DNA of 64,000 bases, taken from assembly GCA_028688225.1 (NCBI GenBank), contig JAQTYQ010000002.1, positions 124,001 to 188,000 of the forward strand. Direction: 5' to 3'. Every line of letters begins with the position of its first letter. The first letter of the stretch is position 1. Origin of the DNA: Opitutaceae bacterium. Its GTDB lineage: Bacteria; Verrucomicrobiota; Verrucomicrobiia; Opitutales; Opitutaceae. Positions 9,345-24,025 of this stretch are shown piece by piece. Made by a program: the position numbers and the translations under genes. Under the pieces are notes generated by a model, which saw only the letters and a program-made list of their open reading frames with translations, was not told where the DNA came from and made no database searches.

Positions 9345-9493
9345 TATAGCGATCTAAACTGAAGTGTAGCCACGAAAGAGCACATGGATCGCAAAGGAAA
9401 AATCTGAGAGGATTGGCTATGTGCTCCTTGCGTTTTTTGGTGGCTAAAGATCGAGTTCAAAATTTGGCCACGACTTTACTTAAGATGCTCTAG
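9345..9493. mobile_element. MITE-like repeat, type B copy 1
   Basis: The element is about 149 bp and nearly repeated at 22697-22845. Shared blocks include gaagtgtagccacgaaag, ttggtggctaaagatcgag and tttggccacgactttactta. The ends form an imperfect inverted repeat related to TAnAGCGnnTTAAnT. The terminal cta of the right end (9490-9492) is the TAG stop codon of the neighbouring minus-strand SDR gene. No open frame lies inside, so mobility would have to come from elsewhere. Confidence 0.8.
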
Positions 9494-10341
9494 AACCGCA
9501 GCCCGCGGTCCTCCGGCACGATGCGGCGGAGCGTGTACACCTCCGACCCGGCCAGGGTTTTCGCATGCCGGTCGAGCGTGGTCCACGGATCCCACTGGGC
9601 CGCCAGCAGCCGGCCGCTGATGCCGTCGGAGGCGGGCGACAGCAGCCACGCCACGAGCCCGATGGCCTTTTCGAGCGAACCGCCGCCCGTTTCCTTTTGT
9701 TTGCGGGCAGCCTCGTATTCGGCCTGGCCGGCCACGCCCGGCCCCAGGCGGAGCACCTCGTCGGTGAGACGGGTGTTGATGGCTCCGGGGGCGATGGCGT
9801 TGATGTCGAGCGGCTGGCTGCGCAGCTCCTCGGCCACGGTCTCGACCAGCCGGACCACCCCGGTCTTGGCCACGCCGTACGCGGAGAAATTGGGCCGCGG
9901 CTTGGTGGCGCCGCCGCCCGAGAAGCACACGATCTTGGCGCGGCGCGGGGCGTGGCGCAGAAGTTCATGGAAGGCGCGGATGGCGTAGTAGGTGCCGTCG
10001 AGGTTCGAGCGCACGGTTGCGCTCCATTGTTGCGGATCCACGGCGACGGCGGGGCCGACCGCGCCCTGCAATCCCGCGCAGGTGATGAGGCCGTCGGCAT
10101 GCGGCCAGGCCGCGTGAACCTCGCGCGCGGCGCGGGCGACCTGATCCCAGTCGGAGACGTCGCAGCGGATGGCCCGGAAGGCGGCGGGATATTGCGCCGC
10201 CAGGCCGGCCTGGCCGGAACGGGCGAAACCCCACACGTGATGACCTTGCGCGAGCAGGTGCCCCGCCAGCGCGTGCCCGATGCCCGAACTGGTGCCGGTG
10301 ATGACGAGGTGCATGCGGGAGGACGGGGGAGGCCGGCTCAT
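9490..10341 (-). CDS. Short-chain dehydrogenase/reductase (classical SDR)
   Basis: This 283-residue enzyme has the NAD(P) motif TGTSSGIG at residues 15-22 and the catalytic SAYGVAK with Tyr and Lys spaced by three, plus an upstream Ser in CFSGGGA. The start at 10341 overlaps the stop of the upstream gene by four bases (ATGA), which supports it over the internal ATG at 10314 and indicates translational coupling. The stop codon TAG is contributed by the end of a type B repeat. Probably a cytoplasmic ketoreductase acting on a sugar or lipid intermediate of the locus; substrate unknown. Confidence 0.9.
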   Translation of the reverse strand: MSRPPPSSRMHLVITGTSSGIGHALAGHLLAQGHHVWGFARSGQAGLAAQYPAAFRAIRCDVSDWDQVARAAREVHAAWPHADGLITCAGLQGAVGPAVAVDPQQWSATVRSNLDGTYYAIRAFHELLRHAPRRAKIVCFSGGGATKPRPNFSAYGVAKTGVVRLVETVAEELRSQPLDINAIAPGAINTRLTDEVLRLGPGVAGQAEYEAARKQKETGGGSLEKAIGLVAWLLSPASDGISGRLLAAQWDPWTTLDRHAKTLAGSEVYTLRRIVPEDRGLRF

Positions 10342-10850
10342 TTTCGTTCCCGCTCGACAGCGTAGTCCGGCAGGATCGCCGGCGCCTCGCCGTGCTGCTC
10401 GGGCCGGTGGTCCATGATCCAGAAGGCATCGAGCCGTGGGTAGCGGGGCTCGGGTTCGCGGAGAAGCCGGATCTCGAAGGAGACCTGTGTGCCTCGCCGG
10501 CTGGCGTCGCGCCGCACCGAGACGATCCGGAAACGGTCGCCGGTGCGCACGAGATCGATGATGCGCACCCCGGCCAGGTCGGCGCCGACGTATCTGGGCG
10601 ACACCTCGGCGGGCAGTTCCGGCACGCTCATGGGTGCGCTGGGAAAATTGGCGCCAACCAAGGGCCAGGACGTGTCATGTCGCTTGAATTTGAAGAGGTA
10701 GCAGTCGTGCTCAAAAATATACTCCCGGCCGGGCAGTTGGGTATACAGCGCCAGGCCGTTGACGTAGGTGGTCTTCGTCGCGTTGAGCTGCCAGGTGACA
10801 AAACCGGCCAGCAACCCGGCGATGGCGAGGGCCAGAATCCATTTCGTCAT
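10338..10850 (-). CDS. Membrane-anchored protein of unknown function
   Basis: This 170-residue protein starts with MTKWILALAIAGLLAGFV, one hydrophobic helix after a short basic start, followed by an about 145-residue soluble region rich in aromatic and charged residues, so it is probably anchored with the bulk outside the cytoplasm. I recognise no family. It is coupled to the SDR downstream by an ATGA overlap. Charge pattern and codon use look like the neighbours. The role is unknown; association with sugar-modifying genes is the only clue. Confidence 0.75.
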   Translation of the reverse strand: MTKWILALAIAGLLAGFVTWQLNATKTTYVNGLALYTQLPGREYIFEHDCYLFKFKRHDTSWPLVGANFPSAPMSVPELPAEVSPRYVGADLAGVRIIDLVRTGDRFRIVSVRRDASRRGTQVSFEIRLLREPEPRYPRLDAFWIMDHRPEQHGEAPAILPDYAVERERK

Positions 10851-11174
10851 GCGCCCAGAAAGACAAAGCGGACGCGCTTTGGCGACGGTTTTGTTGGCAT
10901 CAGGCAGGTGACGTACGTTCTTCTACAACCAGTTTGGAACCACTGATTCACACTGATCTCCTCTAGCATCTATTCCAAAACCTGAAACAGATATGAATCA
11001 TCAGGCATTGGTAGGGGCGCGATCTTGTCGCGCCCTCCGGGAGGGACGCAGCCCCTCGACAGGCTCGGGGCCCTGAGCGAAGTCGAACGGGCAAGCCTGC
11101 GCCCCTACGATTCGTTCGCCGGTTTTGGGATAATTTCTAGTCCAATCAGTGCCTCTGTGGTTCAACGACGGTCT
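10851..11174. other. 324-bp gene-free gap holding a repeat element
   Basis: No gene is apparent. The gap contains the 11011-11108 element with gtaggggcgc / gcgcccctac ends. I see no convincing promoter or terminator. Confidence 0.6.
11011..11108. repeat. Interspersed repeat with inverted gtaggggcgc ends
   Basis: The 98-bp element is bounded by gtaggggcgc and gcgcccctac. Its right 62 bases (11048-11109) recur, apparently exactly, at 30344-30405, including the internal cctcgacaggctcggggccc block. It has no coding potential. Confidence 0.75.
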
Positions 11175-14126
11175 TTACAGCGGTTTAAGTTTTTTCGTAG
11201 CCGTCTTGGTATCGGGTAGCGCAGGCATCTTGCCTGCTCCCTCGACTGATGCAGACTGGAAGCCTGCGCTACTTTTACGGCCATACTTCAATTTAACCCG
11301 CTCTAGAAAGATAGTGACAGTCCCCGCCACCAGGCCAGCCATGCCGGCGAGCGAGATCCAAAAAAGTGCGGCGAGCCCCGTGGGCGGCCGATACTTTAGC
11401 TCGACTTGGGAATTGCCGGCGGGCACGGCGATGCCGACCAGGCCGTCGGGGGTCTTGCGCAGCGTCGCGGGTTTGCCGTTCACCGTTGCGGCATAACCGG
11501 TCTGAAACATGCGGGGCGTCTCCAGCCAGGCCGGAGCGGGACTGCGGACCCGGGCCCGGTAGGGAACCCAGCTCTCCACCTGCACCGGTAATGCCGCCGG
11601 ATTGTAGGCGATCATCCGGAGGTGGGCAAACGGCACCAGTTCCGGGGGTGTGCCTGCCTCCGGGGCCTGGAGAAAGCGCACGGTCACTTTTTCCGCGGTC
11701 GGCGTGGACGTCCAGAGTGACAGCCAGTTCGCATGCTCGCCGCCGGCGCCAAAGGCTTTCAGGCCGCCGTAGGCCGGCAGGGCGTATTCGCGGAAAAACG
11801 AGCGGCCGGTGAGCTGGAAGACTCCGATGGTTTTTTCCGGTTTGAGGAACTCACAGGTGAGCAGGTAGCGCCGGTTGGGTTCGAGCGTGAGCGGGGCCGA
11901 TAGCCTGAGTTCAGTGGCGTCCGGCTGGGGATACCCATCGAAATGGCCGGCGGGGACCTCTTGGCCGGTGGCGAGCGCGGCGGCGGGATTGGTTGCAATC
12001 GGCGCCAGCGTGTCCCGCGCCAGCAGCCGTTCCTCCATCGCCGGATCCGCATTGCCGTGGGTGAACGTCCCGGGCGGCTGCGGGAAGATGAGATAGGAAT
12101 AGCTGGTCAGGAGTATGTTTTCCGGCCGCAGCATGTCGACGGCGGTTTCCGGAGGCCGGCGGCCATCGCGGGAACCTTTGGCGAACTTGGCCGCTTCGAC
12201 CAGGCTCCACGCGCAGGCGAGCGTCAGGAGCACCGCCAGCCAGCGCTGCCGCCGCGGATGATCCAGCACGCCTCCGGCCATGACCGCTGCCGCGCCGAAG
12301 ATCACCGTGCCCGCGAGCACCAGGTACAGGCGATTCATCGCCCAGTTGCCGGTGATGTTGCGCACCAGGGCCGGCACGGCGTTCCAGAGCTTGAGGTCCA
12401 GCCCCGGGATGGGCGTCAGCAATAGGGCCACCAGCACGGAGGCGCCGAGCAGAATCCAGGCGGCGGGCTGGCGCACGCGCCACAGGTGCCAGAGGCTGAA
12501 CAACAGCAGACCCCAGAGGGCATAGCCGAGTTGAAAATCGCCCAATACCCGGCCATCGGAACTGAGAGGCAACAACACTGCGGGAAAGACTTGCCGCAGG
12601 AAGGAGACCATATTGAAAGCGGTCGCCACCTGAAAGGCATCGGCCTTTACGGAAGCCTCCGGCGGGAAAAGCAGCACCGAGCCGATCGGATAGGCCGCCA
12701 CCGCGGCAAAAACCGCGGCCCCGGCGACGACGTGCAGCCAGGCTCGGCCGCGTGGACGCTGGATCAGCAACCGGATGATCTGGGCGATCCCGGCCAGCAG
12801 GGTGGTCCAGAGCGCGATGGGCGCATGACCCCACCAGCAGAGTCCCAGAGCCGTGCCCAGCAAGATCATCGGCCAGCGCGCCCCGTCATCGCGAAACGAG
12901 CGCACGGTGGCCAGCCACACCAGCGGCACCCAGGGCAGCGTGGTCCACGACATGTAAAGATCGTTGTTGTAGGCGATGCCCAGCACGCCCGGGCAGGCCA
13001 GATAGAACACCGCCAAACCGGCCGCGAACCAGCGGTGCCGGGGCAACAGGGTCCGGAGACTGAAATAAGCGGAAAAGATGGCGCCCAAGCCGATGGCTGT
13101 AATCAGCAAATTCTGCAGGGCGAACACGCCAAGCGTGCGCAGAGTGAGCGCGTCCAGAAGGGCACCCAGGTAATGGAAGGCGGGCGCAACCCGCAGCGGG
13201 TAGATCGCGCCGTTGAATTGATAGATGCTCTGGCCGAGCCAGACGGGAAACACCCCGGCGCGCGTCTGCGCCACCATGTCGGCCAGCATCGTGCCGTACC
13301 AGCGCGCGTCGGGCGCACCGTGGAGCGTGAATTCCGCAAAACCCTGCAGGAGAAAAAATCCGGCGAGGGCCAGGAGGAGCCAGCGCAAGTTTTCCGCCAC
13401 GGCGCCGGGGAGACGCGCCGTCCCGCGCACGGCGATGCGGTAAACTGCCAGGGTCGCCGCGATCCAGAGGAAGACCGTGAGGTGCGCCCGGGGAATCGTC
13501 CCGTGCAGGGCGAGCCCGGCTGACCAGAGCGCAGCCAACAGGGCAAGTGATCCGGCGAGGCGCACGACGTCATGCGGGCCCGGCCGGTACCAGCCGGCCA
13601 TCCTTCTTCCGGCCAGCCATAACAGGATCAGCGTCCATGGCAGCCAGGGGTGCGGCCAGAAAGCCGGATACAAGCTGTGCGCGAGGTAAAAACCGATGCC
13701 CAGCACCATGGCCTCGCCGAGCAGCAGATCGTCGTGGGCCTGCTGCCGGCGCATCGCCCAGTCGCGCGAATGGGCGCGATCCAGCACAGGCACAACCGCC
13801 CGCTGGGCCAGGGCCGCGCCAATCCAAAATGGCGCAAAGGCGAGGGAAGCCCAAGGCCGGCCGAAGCCAAGATGGAAGAGGACTCCAGCTCCAACCGTGA
13901 CGCCCAGCAAAGCCGGCAGCTGGGCCCGAAAGTGCCGCCAGGCGCCGCTCTCAGCCGGAGTCTCCCGCAGCAGAAGGAACAGACCCAGCGCCAGCACCAC
14001 CAGCTCCGCCATGCCCGGGACCCGGGCGGCCGGCAGCGCCCGGCCGGTGAGTTCCAGCGCCCCGGCCAGAAGCACTAGGTCGATCAGGCCGGCAAAACGT
14101 TGCTGGAGCCAATGGCGAATATTCAC
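11175..14126 (-). CDS. YfhO-like large membrane protein with a repeat-encoded C-terminal tail
   Basis: This 983-residue protein has about a dozen or more membrane segments, then a periplasmic region ending in the YfhO-type signature GYAATVNGKPATL ... VPAGNSQVELKYRP and a last membrane helix. YfhO-like proteins belong to the GT-C superfamily and are implicated in adding sugars to extracytoplasmic polymers. Its N-terminus resembles the PTPS-related membrane domain (SIYQFNGAIYPLRVAPAFHYL), shared with three paralogues at 14224, 19936 and 24026. The final about 41 residues (SAGFQSASVEGAGKMPALP region) are encoded inside a MITE-like repeat (11179-11302), so the original stop was probably displaced by that element. 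It lacks the beta-repeat domains of its neighbour. Confidence 0.85.
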   Translation of the reverse strand: MNIRHWLQQRFAGLIDLVLLAGALELTGRALPAARVPGMAELVVLALGLFLLLRETPAESGAWRHFRAQLPALLGVTVGAGVLFHLGFGRPWASLAFAPFWIGAALAQRAVVPVLDRAHSRDWAMRRQQAHDDLLLGEAMVLGIGFYLAHSLYPAFWPHPWLPWTLILLWLAGRRMAGWYRPGPHDVVRLAGSLALLAALWSAGLALHGTIPRAHLTVFLWIAATLAVYRIAVRGTARLPGAVAENLRWLLLALAGFFLLQGFAEFTLHGAPDARWYGTMLADMVAQTRAGVFPVWLGQSIYQFNGAIYPLRVAPAFHYLGALLDALTLRTLGVFALQNLLITAIGLGAIFSAYFSLRTLLPRHRWFAAGLAVFYLACPGVLGIAYNNDLYMSWTTLPWVPLVWLATVRSFRDDGARWPMILLGTALGLCWWGHAPIALWTTLLAGIAQIIRLLIQRPRGRAWLHVVAGAAVFAAVAAYPIGSVLLFPPEASVKADAFQVATAFNMVSFLRQVFPAVLLPLSSDGRVLGDFQLGYALWGLLLFSLWHLWRVRQPAAWILLGASVLVALLLTPIPGLDLKLWNAVPALVRNITGNWAMNRLYLVLAGTVIFGAAAVMAGGVLDHPRRQRWLAVLLTLACAWSLVEAAKFAKGSRDGRRPPETAVDMLRPENILLTSYSYLIFPQPPGTFTHGNADPAMEERLLARDTLAPIATNPAAALATGQEVPAGHFDGYPQPDATELRLSAPLTLEPNRRYLLTCEFLKPEKTIGVFQLTGRSFFREYALPAYGGLKAFGAGGEHANWLSLWTSTPTAEKVTVRFLQAPEAGTPPELVPFAHLRMIAYNPAALPVQVESWVPYRARVRSPAPAWLETPRMFQTGYAATVNGKPATLRKTPDGLVGIAVPAGNSQVELKYRPPTGLAALFWISLAGMAGLVAGTVTIFLERVKLKYGRKSSAGFQSASVEGAGKMPALPDTKTATKKLKPL
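11179..11302. mobile_element. MITE-like repeat, type A copy 1, inside a gene 3' end
   Basis: This 124-bp element starts agcggtttaagtt and ends with a related inverted end (tttaacccgct). It closely matches 23891-24013, including gtatcgggtagcgcaggc and the cttttacggccatac block. It lies within the 3' end of the 983-residue membrane protein gene, whose TAA stop is one base outside the left end. Confidence 0.85.
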
Positions 14127-14223
14127 AAGAGGAGGGCGAATGACGTTGGGTGGCTTTGGACCCCATGGACGGGCGATTTCTCCATGGGTTAATCACCAGG
14201 TCTTGGGTTGAAGTGGGGTTTAT

Positions 14224-17200
14224 TCATGGGACAGACCCACGGCGTTCCTCGGAATAGATGATGCCGCTGAACTCCGGCCCGCAGGTGGAGCCGCCGATGC
14301 GGTTGTGCCCGACAGTGATGCCCGCTGTGTCAGCGGGATAGCACGGTAAATCGGCTTGAAATACGATCCGGCCGTTGAGCCTGATGGTGCGGTGCAGTTG
14401 GCAGCGCTGGCGTGTTTCCGTCGAAAGCCCGTTCCACCCGTCCGCGTCGAGTGTGGCCGGATAAAGCGAGCCCATGCTGATCTCCAGTTCTTGCGGCGAA
14501 TCGTAATCGATGGGGATCGGCTCGCTGACGGCTCCGCCCACCGCCCAGTGGTCGAAGCCGAAACGCACATGCCGGGCGTCGGCGTAGATGACATACGCGA
14601 AATCGCCCGCGCCGGGACGTCCGGTGACCACGAGCGGTTCCTGCTGGCCGGTTTTATCTTGGGGGAAAAAGACCGTGAGGCGGATCGGCCCGAACGTTTG
14701 TGCCGGTCGCGAATCGAACGCAGCAGCCGGGGGCACGACCGCCAGGGTCGGCCCGGTGAAGCGGGCTTCGATTCCCGGCAGACCCGAGGCATTGAACCCG
14801 GCGGTGATTTCGAACGGTTGATCCAAGATCGCGGGCAGCTTCAGGTCGAAGAGGTGCCGGCCTCTGAACTCCAGATCTGCCGCCAGCGCCGGGCTGCCCG
14901 CAGTCTGACGGCTAATGCCGACGGTCAGCACCTCCTCCCGTCCGGCCGCAAAAGGCAAAACCGGCGATTCGGTTTTGGTGCCGTCGGTTGCCACAAAACC
15001 GAATCGCAACCGGTCCCGGCTGAGATAGCTGACATAATACAGGCCGTCCCGGCCGGCCGGTCCCAGCGATAGCAGCGGCTCGCTCAACCCTTCCCGGTCA
15101 GCCGGAAAGCACAGCTTCAGGTTCACGGACTGGGGCGGGAAAAGCACCAGCGCCGGGGCCGGCGGCAGGCGCCCGACTTTCAGGATGGTGCCGCTGAACC
15201 GGGCATCGGTGTTGGAGCCGCCGATGCGCGTTTCGCCTATGGTCACTTCAGTAATTCTGGATTCGAAGGCCGGACGCGGCACGAGGAGTGCCGTCCGGCC
15301 GTTGAGTTCAACGCGCAACTCTCCGCGCCGCCGGGCCAGCGTCAGGGGACTGAGGGCCCGCACGCGGGGATGATCGAGCGGGTAAAGCGCCGACGAACTG
15401 ACCACGATCTCCTGCTCCTGCCAGTAATCCACCGGCAGGGGGTCCGATTCATAGAGCTTGCCCCAGATTTCGGCACCCACCCGCACGTGCTGCTCGTCGT
15501 GATATTCGAGGAACACGATGGTGCCCGCTCCCGTCCGGCCGGTGGCCAGCACAGGCTGCCGCCGGCCGGGCTGGTCGCGAGGCAGCAGGAGCGTGATGCG
15601 CACCGGACCGATAGCCTGGAGGTACGCGGACCGGAAATGCCAGACGGAGGCGCCGGCGGCGATGACCGCCGCCGTGCCGAGCAACCACCATCGGTGCCGC
15701 TTGAGCCAGACCAGGAGTGGTGTCCATGCGCGGATGAGCGGGCGCAGATTTTCTGCGCAGCTAAAACCGGTGGCGTGTCCCGCCGCCCAGATGAAAAAGC
15801 CCAGCCAGGCGATGGCGTTGAGCCAGAACGTAACTCTGACCGCCGGCGTACCCGCATAGCTCAGCTCGACCTCACTCTTTCCCCTGGGTACGGGCAGCAT
15901 CACCTGCCCGGCGGGCGAGCGGATCGGGCGGACCGGACGGCCGTTGACGGTGGCGCGGTAGCCCGGGAGGTAGCGCCGGCACGTTTCGACATAGCAGCCG
16001 TCCTCGTCGGTTTCGACCGTGCAACGCAGCGGCAGCAGTGACTCCACACGGACCGGCAGACGGGCGGTATCGACGGCCTGCAGGATAAAACCGGCGGGCT
16101 CGACCGAAGCGCCGGAAGACGGAGCCCAATCGGGAACATGGAGCTCAAGGGTCACTTTTTCCGGCTGCTCCAGCGCAGTCCAGAGCGGAAACGTGTACCG
16201 ATGAGACGGGGCTGCACCGGTGCCCGAAGGCTCATCCGCATCGGGCAGGCTGTACAACCGGGCCAGCGCGGTGCCGCCCAGGATGAGCACGACTTGGCGG
16301 GGCGGCGTACGAAACGCGAGCGACAGCAGGTACTGCCGGTGTGGTTCCAGCGTGAATTGCGCCGTGGCCACGCCCGCTGGGGAGGCCGGCAGTTCGCCCT
16401 GGGCGACGACCGACGCCTCCATGAGGGCGCCTTGCATCGGCGCAGCGATGATTTCCTTGCCGTGCTTTTGTAGGGCGAATTCGAACCGGGGATCGATCAC
16501 GCTGCGCCGGTACGAAGGCGGCACACCGAGGAAGGCATAGGAGGCGATGGTTAGGTCGATGTTAGAAGCCAGATGGCTGCGCGTCGTGGCCTCCTTTTCC
16601 CACCGCGTGGCGAATCCCCGTACGATGAACGGCCGGGCCTGCCAGAACAACGCGGCGACGCCGAGCGCGACGAGAAAAATCATCCCGCTGCGGGCGGGCT
16701 TGGTGCGCGGCAGCCTGCACGGTGTCACGAGTGCGGCGCCGAAAATGACCAGGGCCGTGGCCACGAGATAGAGGCGCTGCATCGGCCAGATGTTGGTCAG
16801 GGTGTGGACGGCGGAGGGCAGGTGCAGCCAGAGCCAGCCGGTCACTCCGGGAATGGGCAGCGTGAGGCAGAGCAGAAAGAGCGTGCAGACCAGGAGGCCG
16901 GCGTCGACCGGCCTCGGTCGGCGCCGGCCTCCTGGTCTAAAGGCAGACCGCCCGAGCCCGACGACCGTCGCCACCAACAGCAGCCATTGGAGGGCGCCGA
17001 ATTGCAGATCGCTCAGACGGTCCGCCCGGCTGCTGACGGGGAGCAGGCAGCCGGGAAACACCTCGCGCACGTTGCGCAGCAGCACCGTCACAAAGCTGTC
17101 CCGCAGCCCGGCATTGCCGGCAAAGTAGCCGAGGTCGGAGGAGAGAGCGGCCACCGAAACGAAGACGAATCCGGACAAAAACGCCGCGATGACGAACGCG

Positions 17201-17958
17201 TTGGCCAACCCCGCTAGCTCCCGCCATGAGGGCTGTCGCAGAAAAATGAGGCCGCGCACCAACAGCGTGGCGCCGGTCAACCACAGGGCCACGGGCGGAT
17301 GGGCCAGCCATGCGGCCGCCAGCGCGGCGGCCATCAGCATGTCATTGCGCAGAGTGGTCTGGCGGCATTGACGCAGGCAGGCGCCAAGGGCGAGCGGCAC
17401 AAAAGGGGCCGCATGCACCGTCATGTAGAGATCCTGCCCGTAAGCCGCGCCCAGCAGGCTGGGGCATAATCCATAGGCTGACGCCAGCGCGACGGCGGCC
17501 GGACGGGGACAATCCAGCCCCCAGCGCAGACCGGCATAGGCGGCGAAGATCGCGCCGATCAGACTGAGGGCCAGCGAGAGGTTTTGCAGCTCCCAGAAAC
17601 TCAGGTGGCGGAAGGTGGCCAGATCCAGCGCTCCCGCCAGATAGAACAGGTAGGGGGCGTTGCGCAGGGGGTGGATCCGGCCGTTGAACGCAAATTCCGT
17701 CTGCCCTGCCAGCACCGGGATCTCCCCGGCGCGCAGCTGCGTCACCGCATCGGCCACCGCCAGGCTGTAGTTGTAGGCCTCGCCGGTCCCGATTGCCCGG
17801 TCGGTCAAAAACGGGGCGGCCGCCGTCAGCCCGACGGCAAACAGCGCTGCGACCCGCAGCCCCGTCCAGCCCCAGTGCTCTTCCGTCCGTCGGCGCCAGC
17901 GCATGACGGCAAAGGCGCCCAGCGGAACGAGTGCGACGATGGCGAACATGAACGGCAT
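14224..17958 (-). CDS. YfhO-like giant membrane protein with three C-terminal repeat domains
   Basis: With 1244 residues this is the largest member of the set. The N-terminal about 480 residues are polytopic and include AYNYSLAVADAVTQLRAGE and FAFNGRIHPLRNAPYLFYL (PTPS-related/YfhO-like). The region ending PGYRATVNGRPV ... VPRGKSEVELSYAG is the YfhO-type tail. Two further membrane helices follow, then three copies of the repeat domain starting near residues 784, 944 and 1091; the middle one has lost the DHW and GSLYP cores. It thus joins a YfhO-type module to the repeat module seen on unrelated GT-C-like proteins at 1614 and 4742. The gene at 18051 lies upstream in the same direction. Likely a periplasmic-facing glycosyl transfer protein. 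Confidence 0.85.
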   Translation of the reverse strand: MPFMFAIVALVPLGAFAVMRWRRRTEEHWGWTGLRVAALFAVGLTAAAPFLTDRAIGTGEAYNYSLAVADAVTQLRAGEIPVLAGQTEFAFNGRIHPLRNAPYLFYLAGALDLATFRHLSFWELQNLSLALSLIGAIFAAYAGLRWGLDCPRPAAVALASAYGLCPSLLGAAYGQDLYMTVHAAPFVPLALGACLRQCRQTTLRNDMLMAAALAAAWLAHPPVALWLTGATLLVRGLIFLRQPSWRELAGLANAFVIAAFLSGFVFVSVAALSSDLGYFAGNAGLRDSFVTVLLRNVREVFPGCLLPVSSRADRLSDLQFGALQWLLLVATVVGLGRSAFRPGGRRRPRPVDAGLLVCTLFLLCLTLPIPGVTGWLWLHLPSAVHTLTNIWPMQRLYLVATALVIFGAALVTPCRLPRTKPARSGMIFLVALGVAALFWQARPFIVRGFATRWEKEATTRSHLASNIDLTIASYAFLGVPPSYRRSVIDPRFEFALQKHGKEIIAAPMQGALMEASVVAQGELPASPAGVATAQFTLEPHRQYLLSLAFRTPPRQVVLILGGTALARLYSLPDADEPSGTGAAPSHRYTFPLWTALEQPEKVTLELHVPDWAPSSGASVEPAGFILQAVDTARLPVRVESLLPLRCTVETDEDGCYVETCRRYLPGYRATVNGRPVRPIRSPAGQVMLPVPRGKSEVELSYAGTPAVRVTFWLNAIAWLGFFIWAAGHATGFSCAENLRPLIRAWTPLLVWLKRHRWWLLGTAAVIAAGASVWHFRSAYLQAIGPVRITLLLPRDQPGRRQPVLATGRTGAGTIVFLEYHDEQHVRVGAEIWGKLYESDPLPVDYWQEQEIVVSSSALYPLDHPRVRALSPLTLARRRGELRVELNGRTALLVPRPAFESRITEVTIGETRIGGSNTDARFSGTILKVGRLPPAPALVLFPPQSVNLKLCFPADREGLSEPLLSLGPAGRDGLYYVSYLSRDRLRFGFVATDGTKTESPVLPFAAGREEVLTVGISRQTAGSPALAADLEFRGRHLFDLKLPAILDQPFEITAGFNASGLPGIEARFTGPTLAVVPPAAAFDSRPAQTFGPIRLTVFFPQDKTGQQEPLVVTGRPGAGDFAYVIYADARHVRFGFDHWAVGGAVSEPIPIDYDSPQELEISMGSLYPATLDADGWNGLSTETRQRCQLHRTIRLNGRIVFQADLPCYPADTAGITVGHNRIGGSTCGPEFSGIIYSEERRGSVP

Positions 17959-18050
17959 GCGTGAAAGGATCGCCGACCGGCCGGTGGGTGCGTCACGAAA
18001 GGCCGGCCGTGGTCATGGATTCGCCTGGCGTTTCCGACCGGGGTGGGCGG

Positions 18051-19025
18051 CTAACCGCGATGGTCGTAGACCCAGCGGTTGGCCTCGAGCCAGCGCAACG
18101 TGCGCACGATGCCCTGCTCGATGGTGAGTTTCGGCTTCCAGCCGGCGGCCTGGATTTTCCGGGTGTCGAGAAAGATGAAGGGATTGTCGCCGATCCAGCC
18201 GCGGTCGCCGCCGGTGTAGCGCAACTCGGGCTGGAGTCCGAGGGCGCCGCAGATGAAGCGGATACTGTCGTTCACCTGCACGTATTCCGGCGTGCCGAGG
18301 TTGTAGATCTGGATGTGGTGTTTAGCTTGGGCGGCGGTGGCCAGGCGGACGACGTGCAGCATGGAGTCGATGCAGTCCTGCACATAGAGGTAGCTCTTGC
18401 GTTGCGAGCCGTCGCCGAGCACGCGCAGCCATGCCGGGTGTTCCGTGAGCTGCTGGTAGAAATCAAACACGTGGCCGTGGGTGTAGCGTTCGCCGAGGAT
18501 GGAGACAAAACGGAAGATGTAGCCCTCGAAGCCGAAGCCCTCGCCATAGGCGCTGATCAGACTCTCGCCGGCCACCTTGGAGGCGCCATACAGGGAGGTC
18601 TGGATGGGAAACGGCGCATCCTCGGGCGTGGGGATGACGCTGGTTTCGCCGTAGGTGGAACCGGTCGAGGAAAAGGCGAGGCGCCGGATGCCGTTGGCGC
18701 GCATGGCCTCCAGCACATTGAAGGTGGCAAGGGTGTTTTGCTCGACATCCTTGCGGGGTTGTTCGGTGCCGAAGCGCACGTCGGCGTTGGCGGCGAGATG
18801 GAAGACAAAGTCGCAGCCATGCATCGCGGCGGTCAGCGCGGGCAGGTCGAGGTTGTCGCCGCGCACCAGGTTGAAACCGGGCTGCTGCCGGGCGCCGGCC
18901 AGGAACCGCTCCTGGCCGGTGGAAAAATTATCCCAGCCCACGACGGCGAGCCCGTCCGCGAGCAGGCGGTCAACCAGGGTGGAGCCGATGAAGCCGGCGG
19001 CGCCGGTTACGAAGACCCGTTGCAT
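18051..19025 (-). CDS. NAD-dependent epimerase/dehydratase (extended SDR)
   Basis: This 324-residue enzyme begins MQRVFVTGAAGFIG with the GxxGxxG NAD motif, has SSTGSTYG for the catalytic Ser/Thr and YGASK for the Tyr/Lys pair, the order found in UDP-glucose 4-epimerase and related nucleotide-sugar enzymes. HLAANADVRFGTEQP and the TGGDRGWIGD C-terminal segment also fit this group. It probably epimerises or dehydrates a UDP- or GDP-sugar in the cytoplasm. A purine-rich GTGAAA-type tract lies immediately upstream of the ATG (19034-19065). Exact substrate not predictable. Confidence 0.93.
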   Translation of the reverse strand: MQRVFVTGAAGFIGSTLVDRLLADGLAVVGWDNFSTGQERFLAGARQQPGFNLVRGDNLDLPALTAAMHGCDFVFHLAANADVRFGTEQPRKDVEQNTLATFNVLEAMRANGIRRLAFSSTGSTYGETSVIPTPEDAPFPIQTSLYGASKVAGESLISAYGEGFGFEGYIFRFVSILGERYTHGHVFDFYQQLTEHPAWLRVLGDGSQRKSYLYVQDCIDSMLHVVRLATAAQAKHHIQIYNLGTPEYVQVNDSIRFICGALGLQPELRYTGGDRGWIGDNPFIFLDTRKIQAAGWKPKLTIEQGIVRTLRWLEANRWVYDHRG

Positions 19026-19033
19026 GCTGAATG

Positions 19034-19065
19034 TAAGGGTGAAAGTAAAAGTGAGAGTGAGAGTG
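19034..19065. repeat. GTGAAA/GTGAGA hexamer tract
   Basis: A run of gtgaaa/gtgaga-type hexamers sits within 10 bases of the start codon of the minus-strand epimerase. On the coding strand it is pyrimidine-rich, so it is not a Shine-Dalgarno sequence for that gene. Confidence 0.75.
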
Positions 19066-19137
19066 CCCGCCGGCGCAAGCGCGAGGAAAGTGCGGCTGGT
19101 GCGCTTCCCTCATCCGCCGGGCCGCGCCCGTTCACGC

Positions 19138-19869
19138 TCACCCTTGCGCCGGCCGCGGCCGCAACGCGAGCCCGATGCAAAGATTGCACCAGATGAAGGG
19201 GATCCGGAGCGGGAAGAAGCTGCGGGCCTCGGTGGTAAACCAGGGGGCGAGCTCCTCCAGGATCTCGTGTGGGAAGTTGATGTGCTCGCGCTTGTAAAAC
19301 CAGGAGTAGTCACCGCCATAGCGCCGTTTATACACCCTTTCCGCTGAAATCTTGCGCGCCATGGTGTACGCCGGGCTGCCCTCGGTGGGGATGACCACGA
19401 GGAACCGGCCGGTTTCCTTGTTCACCAAGCGGTGAGCCTCGCGGATGGCCGCCGGTAGGTTGGGCAGGTGTTCGAGGACATGGACCGCGATCACCCGGTC
19501 AAAAAAACCGTCGGGAAAATCGAGCCGGGTCTGGCAGTCGCCGACGATGGCCTGCACCCGGGGAAAATTTTTGCGAATCCCCGCCGCCATGTTCTCGCGG
19601 AGTTCGAGCGCATGGTAATTCTCCTCCTGCTCTCGAGTGAGTTTTTCGTGGTGAAGATGCTCGCCGAGTCCTGCCCCGATCTCCAGGGAGGTCTTGAAAT
19701 CGGGCGGCGAGTATTTCACCGGAAAGTTGTGATTGAAAGACTCCACAAGGGCAAAACGCCGCGGCAGCACTTCGTGCCACAGTTTCATGAAGTCATCGCT
19801 AATGCGCTTCTGCTCCGGCGTTAGCGGCGGGAGCGTCTTGGGCCATTTTGGAGTCTGGGTTGTCGGCAT
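19138..19869 (-). CDS. Class I SAM-dependent methyltransferase
   Basis: This 243-residue protein has SAM motif I as LEIGAGLGEHLHHEKL, an acidic motif II region (YHALELRENM), motif III/IV in the FDRVIAVHVLEHLPNL stretch and VNKETGRFLVVIPTEG after it, the common Methyltransf_11 layout. The ATG at 19869 was chosen over 19923, which adds 18 residues of repeat-like composition. It probably methylates a sugar, lipid-linked glycan or small precursor in the cytoplasm. It sits between the epimerase and a YfhO-like gene transcribed the same way. Confidence 0.88.
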   Translation of the reverse strand: MPTTQTPKWPKTLPPLTPEQKRISDDFMKLWHEVLPRRFALVESFNHNFPVKYSPPDFKTSLEIGAGLGEHLHHEKLTREQEENYHALELRENMAAGIRKNFPRVQAIVGDCQTRLDFPDGFFDRVIAVHVLEHLPNLPAAIREAHRLVNKETGRFLVVIPTEGSPAYTMARKISAERVYKRRYGGDYSWFYKREHINFPHEILEELAPWFTTEARSFFPLRIPFIWCNLCIGLALRPRPAQG

Positions 19870-19935
19870 GGGAAAGACTGCGCGGTTAGAGCGAATAGCC
19901 TCCCCGCCCGTGAGAAAAGGCAAATCTTGCCCGGC

Positions 19936-22650
19936 TTACGGATGAAGCGGCTCACGCCGCACCGCGAGGATCCTGCCGGTGAAGCGCGTGCCGGCGTTCG
20001 AGCCGCCGATGCGGTTCTCGCCCACGGTGATGTCCGCGAGCCTGGTGTCGTACGGCCGCACGTTTTCATTGAGGACCACCCGCCCGTCGAGCACCACGCG
20101 CAGCCGCTTCCGCAGGGCCTCGCGTTCAGGGCCGGGCAGAGATTTGACGGCCGGATGATCGGACGGAAACAGCGCCCCTTCCGAAATCTCGATCGTGTGC
20201 ACCGCAAAATAGTCGGCCTCGATGGGTTCGCTTATCTTGCCGAGCAGGCCCCAGACATCGACGCCGAGGCGTACGTGGCGCGAATCCTCGTAGTGCACGT
20301 AGACAAAAGTCCCGGCATGGGGCCGGCCGGTGACCAGCAATGGCTGGGTACCCTGCGGGGCGTTGCGGGGGAAGATGACCTGCAGGACGACTGGGCCGGC
20401 GCCCTCGCGCCAGCGGCGCCAGGCATGCACGCCCCACCAGGCGGCTGCGAGCGCGACTGACACGGCCCCGGCCGTTGCCAGCAGGCGCCAGTTGATTCGC
20501 GCCATTCTCCGGCGAAGTGCACCGATGGCCGACACGACGCCTGCCCGCATCCGGCGTGGCATGATCAATCCCGCCGCCATGCCCGCCCATCCGGCGAAGG
20601 CGAGCCAGAAGGCCGCCCGGAGCAGGGGAGATCCGGCGTAGCGCAGTTCCACCTGACTGGTGTCGGCGGGGACGGGTAGCAGCACGAGCCCGTCGGGCGA
20701 CGTCTGCACGGGACAGGGTTGGCGGTCCACCGTCGCTGCATAACCGGGCAGAAACATGCGCGGCACCTCCAGATAGCCGGCCGTCGCGGCGTGGACCTGC
20801 ACCCGCAGCGGCACGAATGTCTCCACGGCCACCGGGAGCTGGTCGAGGGTCGTGGCCTCGAGCTTGAAGTCGGCAAAGCGCATCCAGCTTTGGGCCTCGA
20901 TCCCCGGTGCGACGAGCCACAGCTCGATCTCCTCGGGCTCCTGGCTCGTCGTCCACAGGCTCAGGGAATGGCGGTTGTGCGGCCGCAGGCCGAAACCTTC
21001 GGGGCCGCCTGCCGCCGGGAGGGAATACTGCCGGAAAAACGTCCGTCCGCGCAGCTGGAGGATGAGCGACCGGGGCGGTGTTTTGAAATCAAACGTCAGT
21101 CGGTAGCGCCGGCCGGGCCGGAGCGTGAGCCGCGGCGCCAGCACCAGGTGATCGGCGGCGGTCTCGACCACCCGGAAGGTGCCGCGGGCCGCCGTCTCGG
21201 CGAACGGCGCGTCGGCGTTGGCCGCCACCACGTGCGCATCGAACGGGGCGCGCAGGCGGAATTCCATCACCGGGTCGATGACGCCGTTCATGAACCAGGG
21301 CGGGGAGCCGAGCATGGCGAACGAGATCACGGTCAGGTCGATGTTCTCGGGCTGGTGGACCCGGCGGGAGCTGGCGGCATCGAGGCGCGTGGCAAAACCG
21401 CGCGCCACAAAAGGCAGCGCCTCCCAGCCGGTCCAGAGCACACCGGCGGCCAGCAGACAGACGGCGGCGTCGCGCCGGAACCCCGTCCACGGCTTCGCCA
21501 GCGGGCGCCAGCCCAGGGCGAACGCAAAAACAGCCAGGAGCGTGACCAGCAGGTACAGGCGCTGCATCGGCCACTGGTTGGTCAGCGTCACCGTGATCGT
21601 GGGCAGCTTTTCCCACAGCCATGTCTGCACGCCCGGCACCGGCAGGGTCAGCGCCAGGAAGAAGGCGGCGACGACGACGAATACCAGCGCCAGCACCTGC
21701 CGCCGCCACAGGGCGAGCCCGGTCGCGACGACCAGCAGCGCCCAGTAAGCGTAGCCCAGTTGAAAATCACCGAGCTGGTCTGCCCGCGCGCTCACCGGCT
21801 CCAGCGCCGCGGCCGCCACCCGGCGCGTCTCGGAGAGCAGCAGTTGCACATCCTTGACGTGGGTGATGCTGTGGTAGCCGCTCACGGTCAGCGCGGACAC
21901 GAAGGCATAGCCGGCCAGCACCGCAAACAGCAGACCCGCGCCCGCAACCGGCAGCAGGATCCGCCCGCGTCGCCACCCGGTGATGACGACGACGAGGCCC
22001 GCCGGCAGCGTGACGACGGTCAGCCAGAATGCCACCGGCGGATGGGCCAGCCAGATGGCCGCCAACCCGATCGCGATTTGGGCGAGGGAGCCGAACGTTC
22101 CTTCGCGCTGGGCCCGGACCAGTCCGCCGAGGACCAGCGGAATCCACGGCGCGGTCATGACGGTCATGTAGAGGTCCATGGCGTAGGCCGTGGAGAGCAG
22201 ACCGGGCGAGAAGCCGTAGGCAGCGGCCAGTCCGGCCGCGATTCGGGCATCGAGCCCGGGCACGGCCCGGCGGAGGGAGCCATAACAGCTCAGCACGCCG
22301 CCGAACAGGCTCAGGCCGACCACGAGGTTTTGCAGCGTCCAGAAGCCGAGCATGCGGAAGGTCAGCAGGTCGAGCAGCCCTGCTGCATAGGTGAAATAGG
22401 GCGCGGTGCGCAGGGGATGGATGCGGCCGTTCCAGGCGTACTCGCTCTGGCCGACGAGCACGGGAAACACACCGGACCGCATCTGGGTGACGCTGTCGGC
22501 GACCGCGAGGCTGTAGTTGTAGGCCTCGCTCGTGCCGAGCGCAGTGTCGGTGAAGAACGGCGCGGCGATGAACAGTCCCGCGGCCAGGAGGATGGCCAGG
22601 ACGGGGCCGCGGCCGGCCAGCAAGGGGCGCAGGGGGGCGGGCGGGGTCAT
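19936..22650 (-). CDS. YfhO-like membrane protein with one C-terminal repeat domain
   Basis: This 904-residue paralogue of the 14224-17958 protein has AYNYSLAVADSVTQMRSGV and YAWNGRIHPLRTAPYFTYA in the N-terminal membrane domain and the YfhO-type PGYAATVDRQP ... VPADTSQVELRYAG tail. After one more membrane helix (near residue 720) it has a single repeat domain from about 752 to the end (PLLVTGRPHAGTFVYV, ALFPSDHP, IGGSNAGTRFTGRI). It may represent the simplest YfhO-plus-repeat state. Likely an inner-membrane protein with the repeat in the periplasm; substrate unknown. Confidence 0.85.
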   Translation of the reverse strand: MTPPAPLRPLLAGRGPVLAILLAAGLFIAAPFFTDTALGTSEAYNYSLAVADSVTQMRSGVFPVLVGQSEYAWNGRIHPLRTAPYFTYAAGLLDLLTFRMLGFWTLQNLVVGLSLFGGVLSCYGSLRRAVPGLDARIAAGLAAAYGFSPGLLSTAYAMDLYMTVMTAPWIPLVLGGLVRAQREGTFGSLAQIAIGLAAIWLAHPPVAFWLTVVTLPAGLVVVITGWRRGRILLPVAGAGLLFAVLAGYAFVSALTVSGYHSITHVKDVQLLLSETRRVAAAALEPVSARADQLGDFQLGYAYWALLVVATGLALWRRQVLALVFVVVAAFFLALTLPVPGVQTWLWEKLPTITVTLTNQWPMQRLYLLVTLLAVFAFALGWRPLAKPWTGFRRDAAVCLLAAGVLWTGWEALPFVARGFATRLDAASSRRVHQPENIDLTVISFAMLGSPPWFMNGVIDPVMEFRLRAPFDAHVVAANADAPFAETAARGTFRVVETAADHLVLAPRLTLRPGRRYRLTFDFKTPPRSLILQLRGRTFFRQYSLPAAGGPEGFGLRPHNRHSLSLWTTSQEPEEIELWLVAPGIEAQSWMRFADFKLEATTLDQLPVAVETFVPLRVQVHAATAGYLEVPRMFLPGYAATVDRQPCPVQTSPDGLVLLPVPADTSQVELRYAGSPLLRAAFWLAFAGWAGMAAGLIMPRRMRAGVVSAIGALRRRMARINWRLLATAGAVSVALAAAWWGVHAWRRWREGAGPVVLQVIFPRNAPQGTQPLLVTGRPHAGTFVYVHYEDSRHVRLGVDVWGLLGKISEPIEADYFAVHTIEISEGALFPSDHPAVKSLPGPEREALRKRLRVVLDGRVVLNENVRPYDTRLADITVGENRIGGSNAGTRFTGRILAVRREPLHP

Positions 22651-22696
22651 GCAGGCGGCGTCTGTGGTAGGCCGGGGCTCCGCCGGTGCGGGCGCC

Positions 22697-22845
22697 TAGA
22701 GCGATTTAAACTGAAGTGTAGCCACGAAAGAACACATAGATCGCAAAGGGAAGGGTCTGAATGGATTGGCGATGCGCTTCTTGAGTTCTTTGGTGGCTAA
22801 AGATCGAGTTCAGAATTTGGCCACGACTTTACTTAAGACACGCTA
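22697..22845. mobile_element. MITE-like repeat, type B copy 2
   Basis: This 149-bp element nearly matches 9345-9493. The left end reads tagagcgatttaaact and the right end, reversed, begins tagcgtgtcttaag, an imperfect terminal inverted repeat. Its last three bases (22843-22845) form the TAG stop codon of the minus-strand GT2 gene, exactly as copy 1 does for the SDR gene. Confidence 0.82.
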
Positions 22846-23775
22846 TTGCTTGAAACCCTCGGCGCGGTCGACGATGAAACGGGGCCGGACCCGCACCTCC
22901 TCGTAGATGCGGCCGATGTATTCGCCGAGGATGCCGACGCTGATGAGCTGCACCCCGCCCATGAAGAGGATGAGGATGACGATGGTCGGATTGCCGACGG
23001 GGAAGGGGAAGCCGGCCAGCTTCATCACCAGATAGATCAGCGCGATGAGGATCGAGCCGAAGGCCAGCGCGAAGCCGAGCTGCGTGCTCAGGGTGAGGGC
23101 GTAGGTGGAAAAGCAGAAGATGCCGTTGAAGCCGATGCGGAGCGACCCGAGGAAGCGGTTGTAGTTGGTCTGCCCGGCGAAGCGCGCCGGACGGTCGAAC
23201 GGGATGAGCACCTGCCGGAAGCCGACCACCGCCACCATGCCGCGCAGGAACCCGTGGGTCTCCTTCAGCTGCACCACCTCGTTGACGACCCGCCGGGACA
23301 TCAGGCGGAAGTCGCCCGTGTTCGGCGGAATCTTCACATCGGCGATCTTGTTGATGATCCGGTAGCCGGTCTCGGCAATGAGTCTCTTGATCCAGGGCTC
23401 GCCCGTCCGCTGGCGGCGCTGCGGCAGCACGACATCGTAGCCCTCCCGCCATTTGGCGATCATCTCCCCGAGCAGTTCCGGCGGATCCTGCAAATCCACG
23501 TCCATGACGACGACGGCGTCGCCCGTGGAGTATTGCATGCCGGCCAGGGTGGACATCGGCTGGCCGAAGCGGCGGGAAAACCTGATCAGCTTGATGCGCG
23601 CATCCTGCGCGCGGTGCTCGAGCACGACCTCCTCAGTGCGGTCGGGCGACGGGTCCAGCGCGAAGATAATCTCGTAGTCCTCGGTGAGACCAGAGAGAAT
23701 CGGACGCAGGCGGCGCAGAAACTCACCGATGTTCTTCTCCTCACGGTAGACGGGAACCACGATGCTCAGGAGCAT
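22843..23775 (-). CDS. GT2 glycosyltransferase, GtrB/DPM1-like polyprenyl-phosphate type
   Basis: This 310-residue protein starts MLLSIVVPVYREEKNI, has the acidic donor-binding DVDLQDPPELL near residue 95 and ends with two hydrophobic helices, the arrangement of GtrB-type enzymes that load a sugar from an NDP donor onto polyprenyl phosphate at the cytoplasmic membrane face. The product would be flipped by a GtrA-like protein (one is present at 1108-1503) and used by GT-C enzymes such as the giants around it. The ATG at 23775 aligns with the family start. The stop codon lies in a type B repeat. Confidence 0.92.
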   Translation of the reverse strand: MLLSIVVPVYREEKNIGEFLRRLRPILSGLTEDYEIIFALDPSPDRTEEVVLEHRAQDARIKLIRFSRRFGQPMSTLAGMQYSTGDAVVVMDVDLQDPPELLGEMIAKWREGYDVVLPQRRQRTGEPWIKRLIAETGYRIINKIADVKIPPNTGDFRLMSRRVVNEVVQLKETHGFLRGMVAVVGFRQVLIPFDRPARFAGQTNYNRFLGSLRIGFNGIFCFSTYALTLSTQLGFALAFGSILIALIYLVMKLAGFPFPVGNPTIVILILFMGGVQLISVGILGEYIGRIYEEVRVRPRFIVDRAEGFKQ

Positions 23776-23890
23776 GCGGGGAGCAAAGCGGAAAACCGGC
23801 GGGGCGGGAAGGCAGAAAACCTGGCCGCCGGCCAACCGTGGAGGCCTGACTGTAATCCGCTTCAGGCCCAACGACGAAAACCTTGGCTAC

Positions 23891-24013
23891 AGCGGTTTAA
23901 GTTATTTCGTAGCCGTCCTGGTATCGGGTAGCGCAGGCTTCCAGCCTGCATTTGTACCGATGCAGGCTGGAAGCCTGCGCTACTTTTACGGCCATACATC
24001 AACTTAAGCCGCT
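23891..24013. mobile_element. MITE-like repeat, type A copy 2
   Basis: This 123-bp element lies between the GT2 start and the end of the next minus-strand gene, with inverted ends agcggtttaagtt and aacttaagccgct (imperfect). The interior carries an inverted pair of the gcaggcttccagcctgca type and a gcaggctggaagcctgcgct half. It nearly matches 11179-11302. Confidence 0.85.
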
Positions 24014-24025
24014 CTGGGATATTCT

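Follow-up and report, generated by a model that had tools for sequence, protein, structure and literature searches.

The window (the whole 64,000-nucleotide stretch of Opitutaceae DNA analysed here) holds four short repeats with inverted ends, B1, A1, B2 and A2. The original prediction had described them as a MITE-like family of two types, A (11179-11302 and 23891-24013) and B (9345-9493 and 22697-22845). All four elements were found, and their limits were refined through copy-to-copy comparison and empty sites, the TA target copies being counted in. Element B1 (9345..9492, + strand) has its alpha end on the left and its beta end on the right (both ends are defined below), target copies at 9345-9346 and 9491-9492 and a core of the form CCACGAAAGAGCACATGGATCGCAAAGG...GCGTTTTTTGGTGGC. 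Its right target copy and terminal G make up the TAG stop codon (9490..9492, - strand) of an SDR gene (9490..10341, - strand). Element A1 (11176..11305, + strand) has the beta end on the left (TACAGCGG...) and the alpha end on the right, with target copies at 11176-11177 and 11304-11305 and, at 11216..11272, a core consisting of an inverted GTAG REP pair (GTAGCGCAGGCATCTTGCCTGC / GCAGACTGGAAGCCTGCGCTAC). Element B2 (22697..22845, + strand) is arranged as B1, with target copies at 22697-22698 and 22844-22845, and again a target copy and the element's G form the TAG stop codon (22843..22845, - strand) of a gene, here a GT2 glycosyltransferase gene (22843..23871, - strand). Element A2 (23888..24016, + strand) is arranged as A1; its left TA lies at 23888-23889, its right target copy (24015-24016) has decayed to TG, and its core (23928..23983) is a 24-nt perfect inverted GTAG REP pair (GTAGCGCAGGCTTCCAGCCTGCAT and its complement). 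Folded as RNA, the entire A2 element reaches -78 kcal/mol.

None of the elements has genes of its own, as had been predicted from the lack of open frames, but the prediction did not hold for read-through. The open reading frame 11175..14126 (- strand) takes its last ~43 residues, read in frame, from the stretch 11175..11305 (- strand). Translation of the filled site compared with that of the joined flanks indicated that A1 interrupts this frame a few codons short of its predicted end, so that the A1-derived tail takes the place of a predicted short native tail.

A second composite repeat lies at 10936-11172 of the window, its outer sequences AACCACTGATTCACACTGATC...AATCAGTGCCTCTGTGGTTC enclosing a GTAGGGGCGC REP pair (11011-11108). 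Copies related to it were seen at C101:1994-2153, where the repeat abuts a type C element (see below), and on contigs C111, C84 and C80, and its REP resembles those that flank two other RAYT-like genes, on C98 and C84.

Dispersed copies have a common pair of ends

Pattern and similarity searching of the 4.3-Mb genome, the check that had been proposed for the end consensus, located copies with common ends across many contigs. About 13 copies are of type A, counting one fragment and one hybrid, three are of type B and seven belong to a third type, C; two extra end matches have yet other cores (C39:1016 and C56:62366). The family thus numbers 23 or more copies, of which only the four already described lie in the window, as originally stated. 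Copies are 84-99% identical and measure 117-147 bp between target copies, and their flanks differ, which led us to reject segmental duplication as the origin of the four window copies. No transposase gene was present within any copy when the sequence of all of them was read. MITEs are short elements (70-300 bp) with terminal inverted repeats and many dispersed copies, lacking an internal transposase gene. The present elements have each of these properties, together with a duplication visible at empty sites, and are real miniature transposons.

In every type an alpha end, TA-GAGCGGTTTAAGTTGAAGTGTAGCCG, is paired with a related beta end, TA-GAGCGGTTTnn...TCGTAGCCG, both of ~27 bp. The inverted end motifs of the family can be written GAGCGGTTTAA...TTAAACCGCTC, and the element proper starts with GAGCG, or with CAGCG at the A beta end. 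The proposal that A and B have different interiors and related ends was borne out: BLAST gave no match between cores of different types, and 22 of 29 positions were identical between the alpha ends of A and B (17/29 for the beta ends), 25 between those of A and C (22/29) and 24 between those of B and C (16/29). The ends are short and the beta ends of B are divergent, at 16-17 of 29 in its comparisons with A and C, so that one might ascribe the A/B likeness to coincidence or to decay of unrelated repeats. The alpha ends, however, match at 22-25 positions, a level of 22 being reached only 10 times among 200,000 pairs of 29-mers drawn at random from the window; the end pattern TANAGCGNTTTAANNT gave 14 matches in the genome and its reversed control 0, and other genera carry the same end. 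We consider coincidence extremely unlikely. That the alpha/beta asymmetry is kept in A, B and C argues for a common ancestral frame rather than independent origins. This asymmetry, type C, the connection of the A and C cores with GTAG REPs and RAYT, and the insertions in stop codons had been missed by the original prediction.

One copy is a hybrid (L010 1501-1630, at C56:15.9k): an A core with the A beta end is joined at GGCC to a B-type beta end, and parts have therefore been exchanged between types. Beside another type A copy (L008, 1501-1635), the 3′ end of the host gene and the far flank carry repeats of the CCAAAATCCCAAGGGCCAAAGGA / TTTGGCCTTTGGCG type, another degenerate intergenic palindrome that is present at orthologous sites in two congeners.

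Empty sites reveal a TA target duplication

The window elements are absent from the congeners G092 and G088, which provided clean empty sites for two copies. The B1 site in G092 (L132) reads ...CTTTTAGAAGTG..., and the B2 site reads ...GGGGCTATGACTTG... in G092 (L132) and ...GTGTTACGATTTG... in G088 (L133). All three have a single TA where the window has TA-element-TA, and the target duplication is therefore TA, which answers the proposed check for target-site duplications. A two-base duplication is by itself weak evidence.

Since no copy carries a transposase, movement in trans, as had been suggested, is the natural reading. Given the TA duplication and the inverted ends, the enzyme is most likely a TA-targeting DDE transposase, either IS630/Tc1-mariner-like or of an IS5 subgroup with TA targets. 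An autonomous partner with the same ends is usual for MITEs and is missing for orphan MITEs such as CREE. With the patterns used, the transposase with matching ends that the original prediction called for was found neither in this genome nor in 12 relatives: these 13 incomplete assemblies contained no inverted end pairs at the spacing of an insertion sequence. A resident IS630 transposase as partner, with the elements as IS630-derived MITEs, was rejected because the only DDE_3 gene of the genome (L131) has no end resembling GAGCGGTTTAA in its flanks. Plasmid and viral collections returned only chance matches to the ends; the single viral match (L165) was set aside as apparently coding sequence with no second end. 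In G037, two contigs stop 250-355 bp past an element end (L152 1986-2236 and L153 2044-2399), possibly where the assembly broke inside a longer repeat.

Half of the two-ended copies lie in stop codons

In 10 of the 21 two-ended copies, the target TA lies within the stop codon of a gene, and TA plus the G of the element reads TAG. Each of the ten genes is recognised by Pfam (P-II, ArgJ, thioredoxin, SDR twice, MFS, semialdehyde dehydrogenase, phosphorylase, GT2 and methyltransferase). For nine of them, those at B1 and B2 included, unoccupied orthologues share the stop position, with a shift of one codon downstream for the phosphorylase; the tenth is the methyltransferase, which could not be aligned to its end. 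At B1 the split codon of the SDR gene is TAA in G092, and at B2 the glycosyltransferase gene stops with TAG in G092 and TAA in G088. Because most ends start with G, insertion into a TAG or TAA stop leaves TAG, and half of the two-ended copies here are such harmless insertions. Of the six stop-codon cases of type A, five have the G-bearing alpha end towards the gene, and the sixth, the hybrid, has a B-derived beta end with G there. The C-bearing A end, which would give TAC, never faces the gene in these cases.

Insertion in stop codons was enriched about 7-fold relative to all intergenic TA of the window (P about 4e-7) and about 2-fold relative to TA at most 150 bp downstream of genes (P 0.007), and was not significantly enriched relative to TA within 60 bp downstream of genes (P 0.28). 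In other species, 4 of 26 copies lie in verified stop codons, many of these copies having been tested at just one end. As the enrichment is lost within 60 bp and the fraction is low in other species, we do not claim a dedicated stop-codon target. We read the pattern as tolerance of gene 3′ ends combined with an end sequence that restores the stop, to which a preference for TAG perhaps adds, and not as proof of such a target.

The position of most copies at gene 3′ ends, often in the stop codon itself, and their strong folding as RNA (-40 to -78 kcal/mol) would also suit selected 3′ end hairpins, acting as terminators or mRNA stabilisers, that are not mobile DNA at all. The empty sites in congeners and the near-identical dispersed copies, however, testify to recent movement, and Rfam had no match. 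We therefore regard this explanation as very unlikely, although an effect on 3′ ends could arise as a by-product of insertion.

The cores of types A and C are GTAG REP pairs

In the cores of A and C, a GTAG tag is followed by a hairpin and the hairpins stand in inverted pairs, built from a GTAGCGCAGGC REP in A and from GTAGGTCGGG hairpins of the GTAG REP type in C. The core of type B is a different, imperfect palindrome with no GTAG hairpin. On contig C47, a gene of 180 aa has GTAGGTCGGGC hairpins on both sides. It bears the NCBIfam name REP-associated tyrosine transposase and matches the E. coli TnpA-REP (PDB 4er8, E 2.4e-9). As this resident RAYT is flanked by the same hairpin, the C core is built of its REP. 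No RAYT adjoining the type A REP was seen in this genome, and stand-alone REPs like the A core occur at only two other places (C40 and C119), so that the A REP is today dispersed chiefly as part of the MITE.

These findings raise the question of whether the whole unit might be a REPtron or TIRtron product, its ends being the long TIRs of a RAYT-like Y1 transposase and ends and REP cores forming one RAYT-driven system. The GTAG REP pairs of A and C and the several RAYT-like genes of the genome fit such a system, the inner end motif GTAGCCG itself starts with GTAG, and RAYTs with long TIRs on either side are on record (PMC3733652). Several observations speak against it. GTAG REPs are missing from type B and from several of the cores found in other species, and GAGCGG ends surrounded no RAYT-like gene at the loci read in this genome, so that no Y1 transposase gene flanked by the ends was found there. 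Moreover, filled and empty sites compare as TA...TA versus TA, that is, the target is duplicated, which Y1 enzymes are not known to do. A single RAYT-driven system is accordingly an unlikely source of these elements.

The end recurs with different cores in related genera

By a strict alpha-end pattern, the end was present in 10 of 252 Opitutaceae genomes, in records named as Opitutae, Opitutaceae, Verrucomicrobiia and Lacunisphaera metagenome assemblies; a slightly longer pattern gave no match among about 160 genomes of the order outside the family. The strict pattern detected no copy in five congeners of the window's genome. The core differs in most species that carry the end: it is a GTCATTGCGAGG repeat in G021, another GTAG pair (GTAGGGCGGAGC) in G149, B-like in G142, C-like in G147, and short and REP-free in G022, G061 and G130.

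Such short forms would fit an old palindromic repeat whose ends are a preferred landing site, into which REPs and palindromes inserted independently before the composite was copied whole. The inner boundary at which the core starts is common to all types, and REP dimers inside longer palindromes are a published precedent (PMC3733652). Against this, no REP-free form turned up in this genome, and within a type the ends and core have been duplicated together, at 92-99% identity, which means that the composite, however it arose, travels as one piece. We hold a landing-site origin to be possible and rather doubtful; it bears on how the core entered and not on the unit being a MITE.

Discussion

The elements of the window probably belong to a MITE superfamily of the Opitutaceae that targets TA, is moved in trans and combines common ends with exchangeable hairpin cores. 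The mobile unit would be the pair of ~27-bp ends, alpha and beta, which a transposase supplied in trans would bind and paste into TA, duplicating it. The segment between GTAGCC and GGCTAC would be exchangeable, with the GTAGCGCAGGC REP pair (A), the GTAGGTCGGG REP pair (C) and the imperfect palindrome (B) as its fillings in this genome. If so, the MITE would carry REP cores along as it multiplies, either in addition to their own RAYT or in its place. Exchange may have proceeded by recombination or template switching at a short inner motif; for its direction and mechanism we infer this much from one hybrid and from comparison. A stronger version, in which one frame actively recruits hairpins, and REP pairs made by RAYTs are loaded into a DDE-type MITE and spread independently of RAYT with a stop-codon bias due to the TAG-restoring base, is a tentative idea that we think probably goes too far.

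The elements are relatives of known kinds, among them CREE, RUP, QMITE2 and REP dimers inside palindromes. Nearest in architecture, on which alone the likeness was judged, are the CREE/NEMIS of Neisseria, which measure about 105-155 bp, have ~25-bp ends in two variants, duplicate TA, hold no genes, form a hairpin transcript and have no known transposase (PMC2649163; PMC2229807). Size, the two end variants, TA duplication, lack of genes and hairpin are common to both families, whereas the hosts are others and CREE/NEMIS exist as length variants with one common core, as opposed to the unrelated palindromes, GTAG REPs included, found here. RUP of Streptococcus pneumoniae, a MITE of ~107 bp derived from IS630-Spn1, resembles the present family in its TA target and presumed movement in trans (PMC2229807) and differs in having as partner an insertion sequence whose ends match its own; no such partner was found here.

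The A and C cores are like REP dimers and REPtrons in their inverted GTAG hairpin pairs and in the presence of one of the REP types on the flanks of a RAYT gene. In Anabaena variabilis, GTAG-15 dimers lie inside TATAGGA...TCCTATA palindromes (PMC3733652), likewise REP pairs enclosed by a longer, TA-tipped palindrome. Unlike these systems, the present frame also holds cores other than GTAG REPs, which differ between species, and its TA duplication is demonstrated by empty sites. QMITE2 of Coxiella burnetii, a MITE of 150-190 bp that contains a GTAG REP and lies mainly in 3′ untranslated regions (PMC5896051), is by its description similar in carrying a GTAG REP inside a MITE at 3′ regions, and differs in its variable duplications of 7-11 bp and single core. 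TIMEs, the Tn3-derived inverted-repeat miniature elements, are non-autonomous mosaics with conserved ends and different core segments (PMC4133298); they share the principle of conserved ends with varying cores, but have 38-bp Tn3 ends, duplications of 5-6 bp and larger cores. Our literature search found no paper mentioning both miniature inverted-repeat elements and Opitut-. To these the present family adds a single frame that holds several unrelated palindromic cores, within one genome and across genera, with its TA duplication established.

These elements bear on how REPs persist and spread in genomes that have no RAYT or have lost it, nearly all type A REPs being inside the MITE. Copies with the same ends and different cores form a natural exchange series, a test bed for end recognition and core exchange. 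They also show that an element can reside in stop codons at little cost in a genome that is rich in GC and poor in TA.
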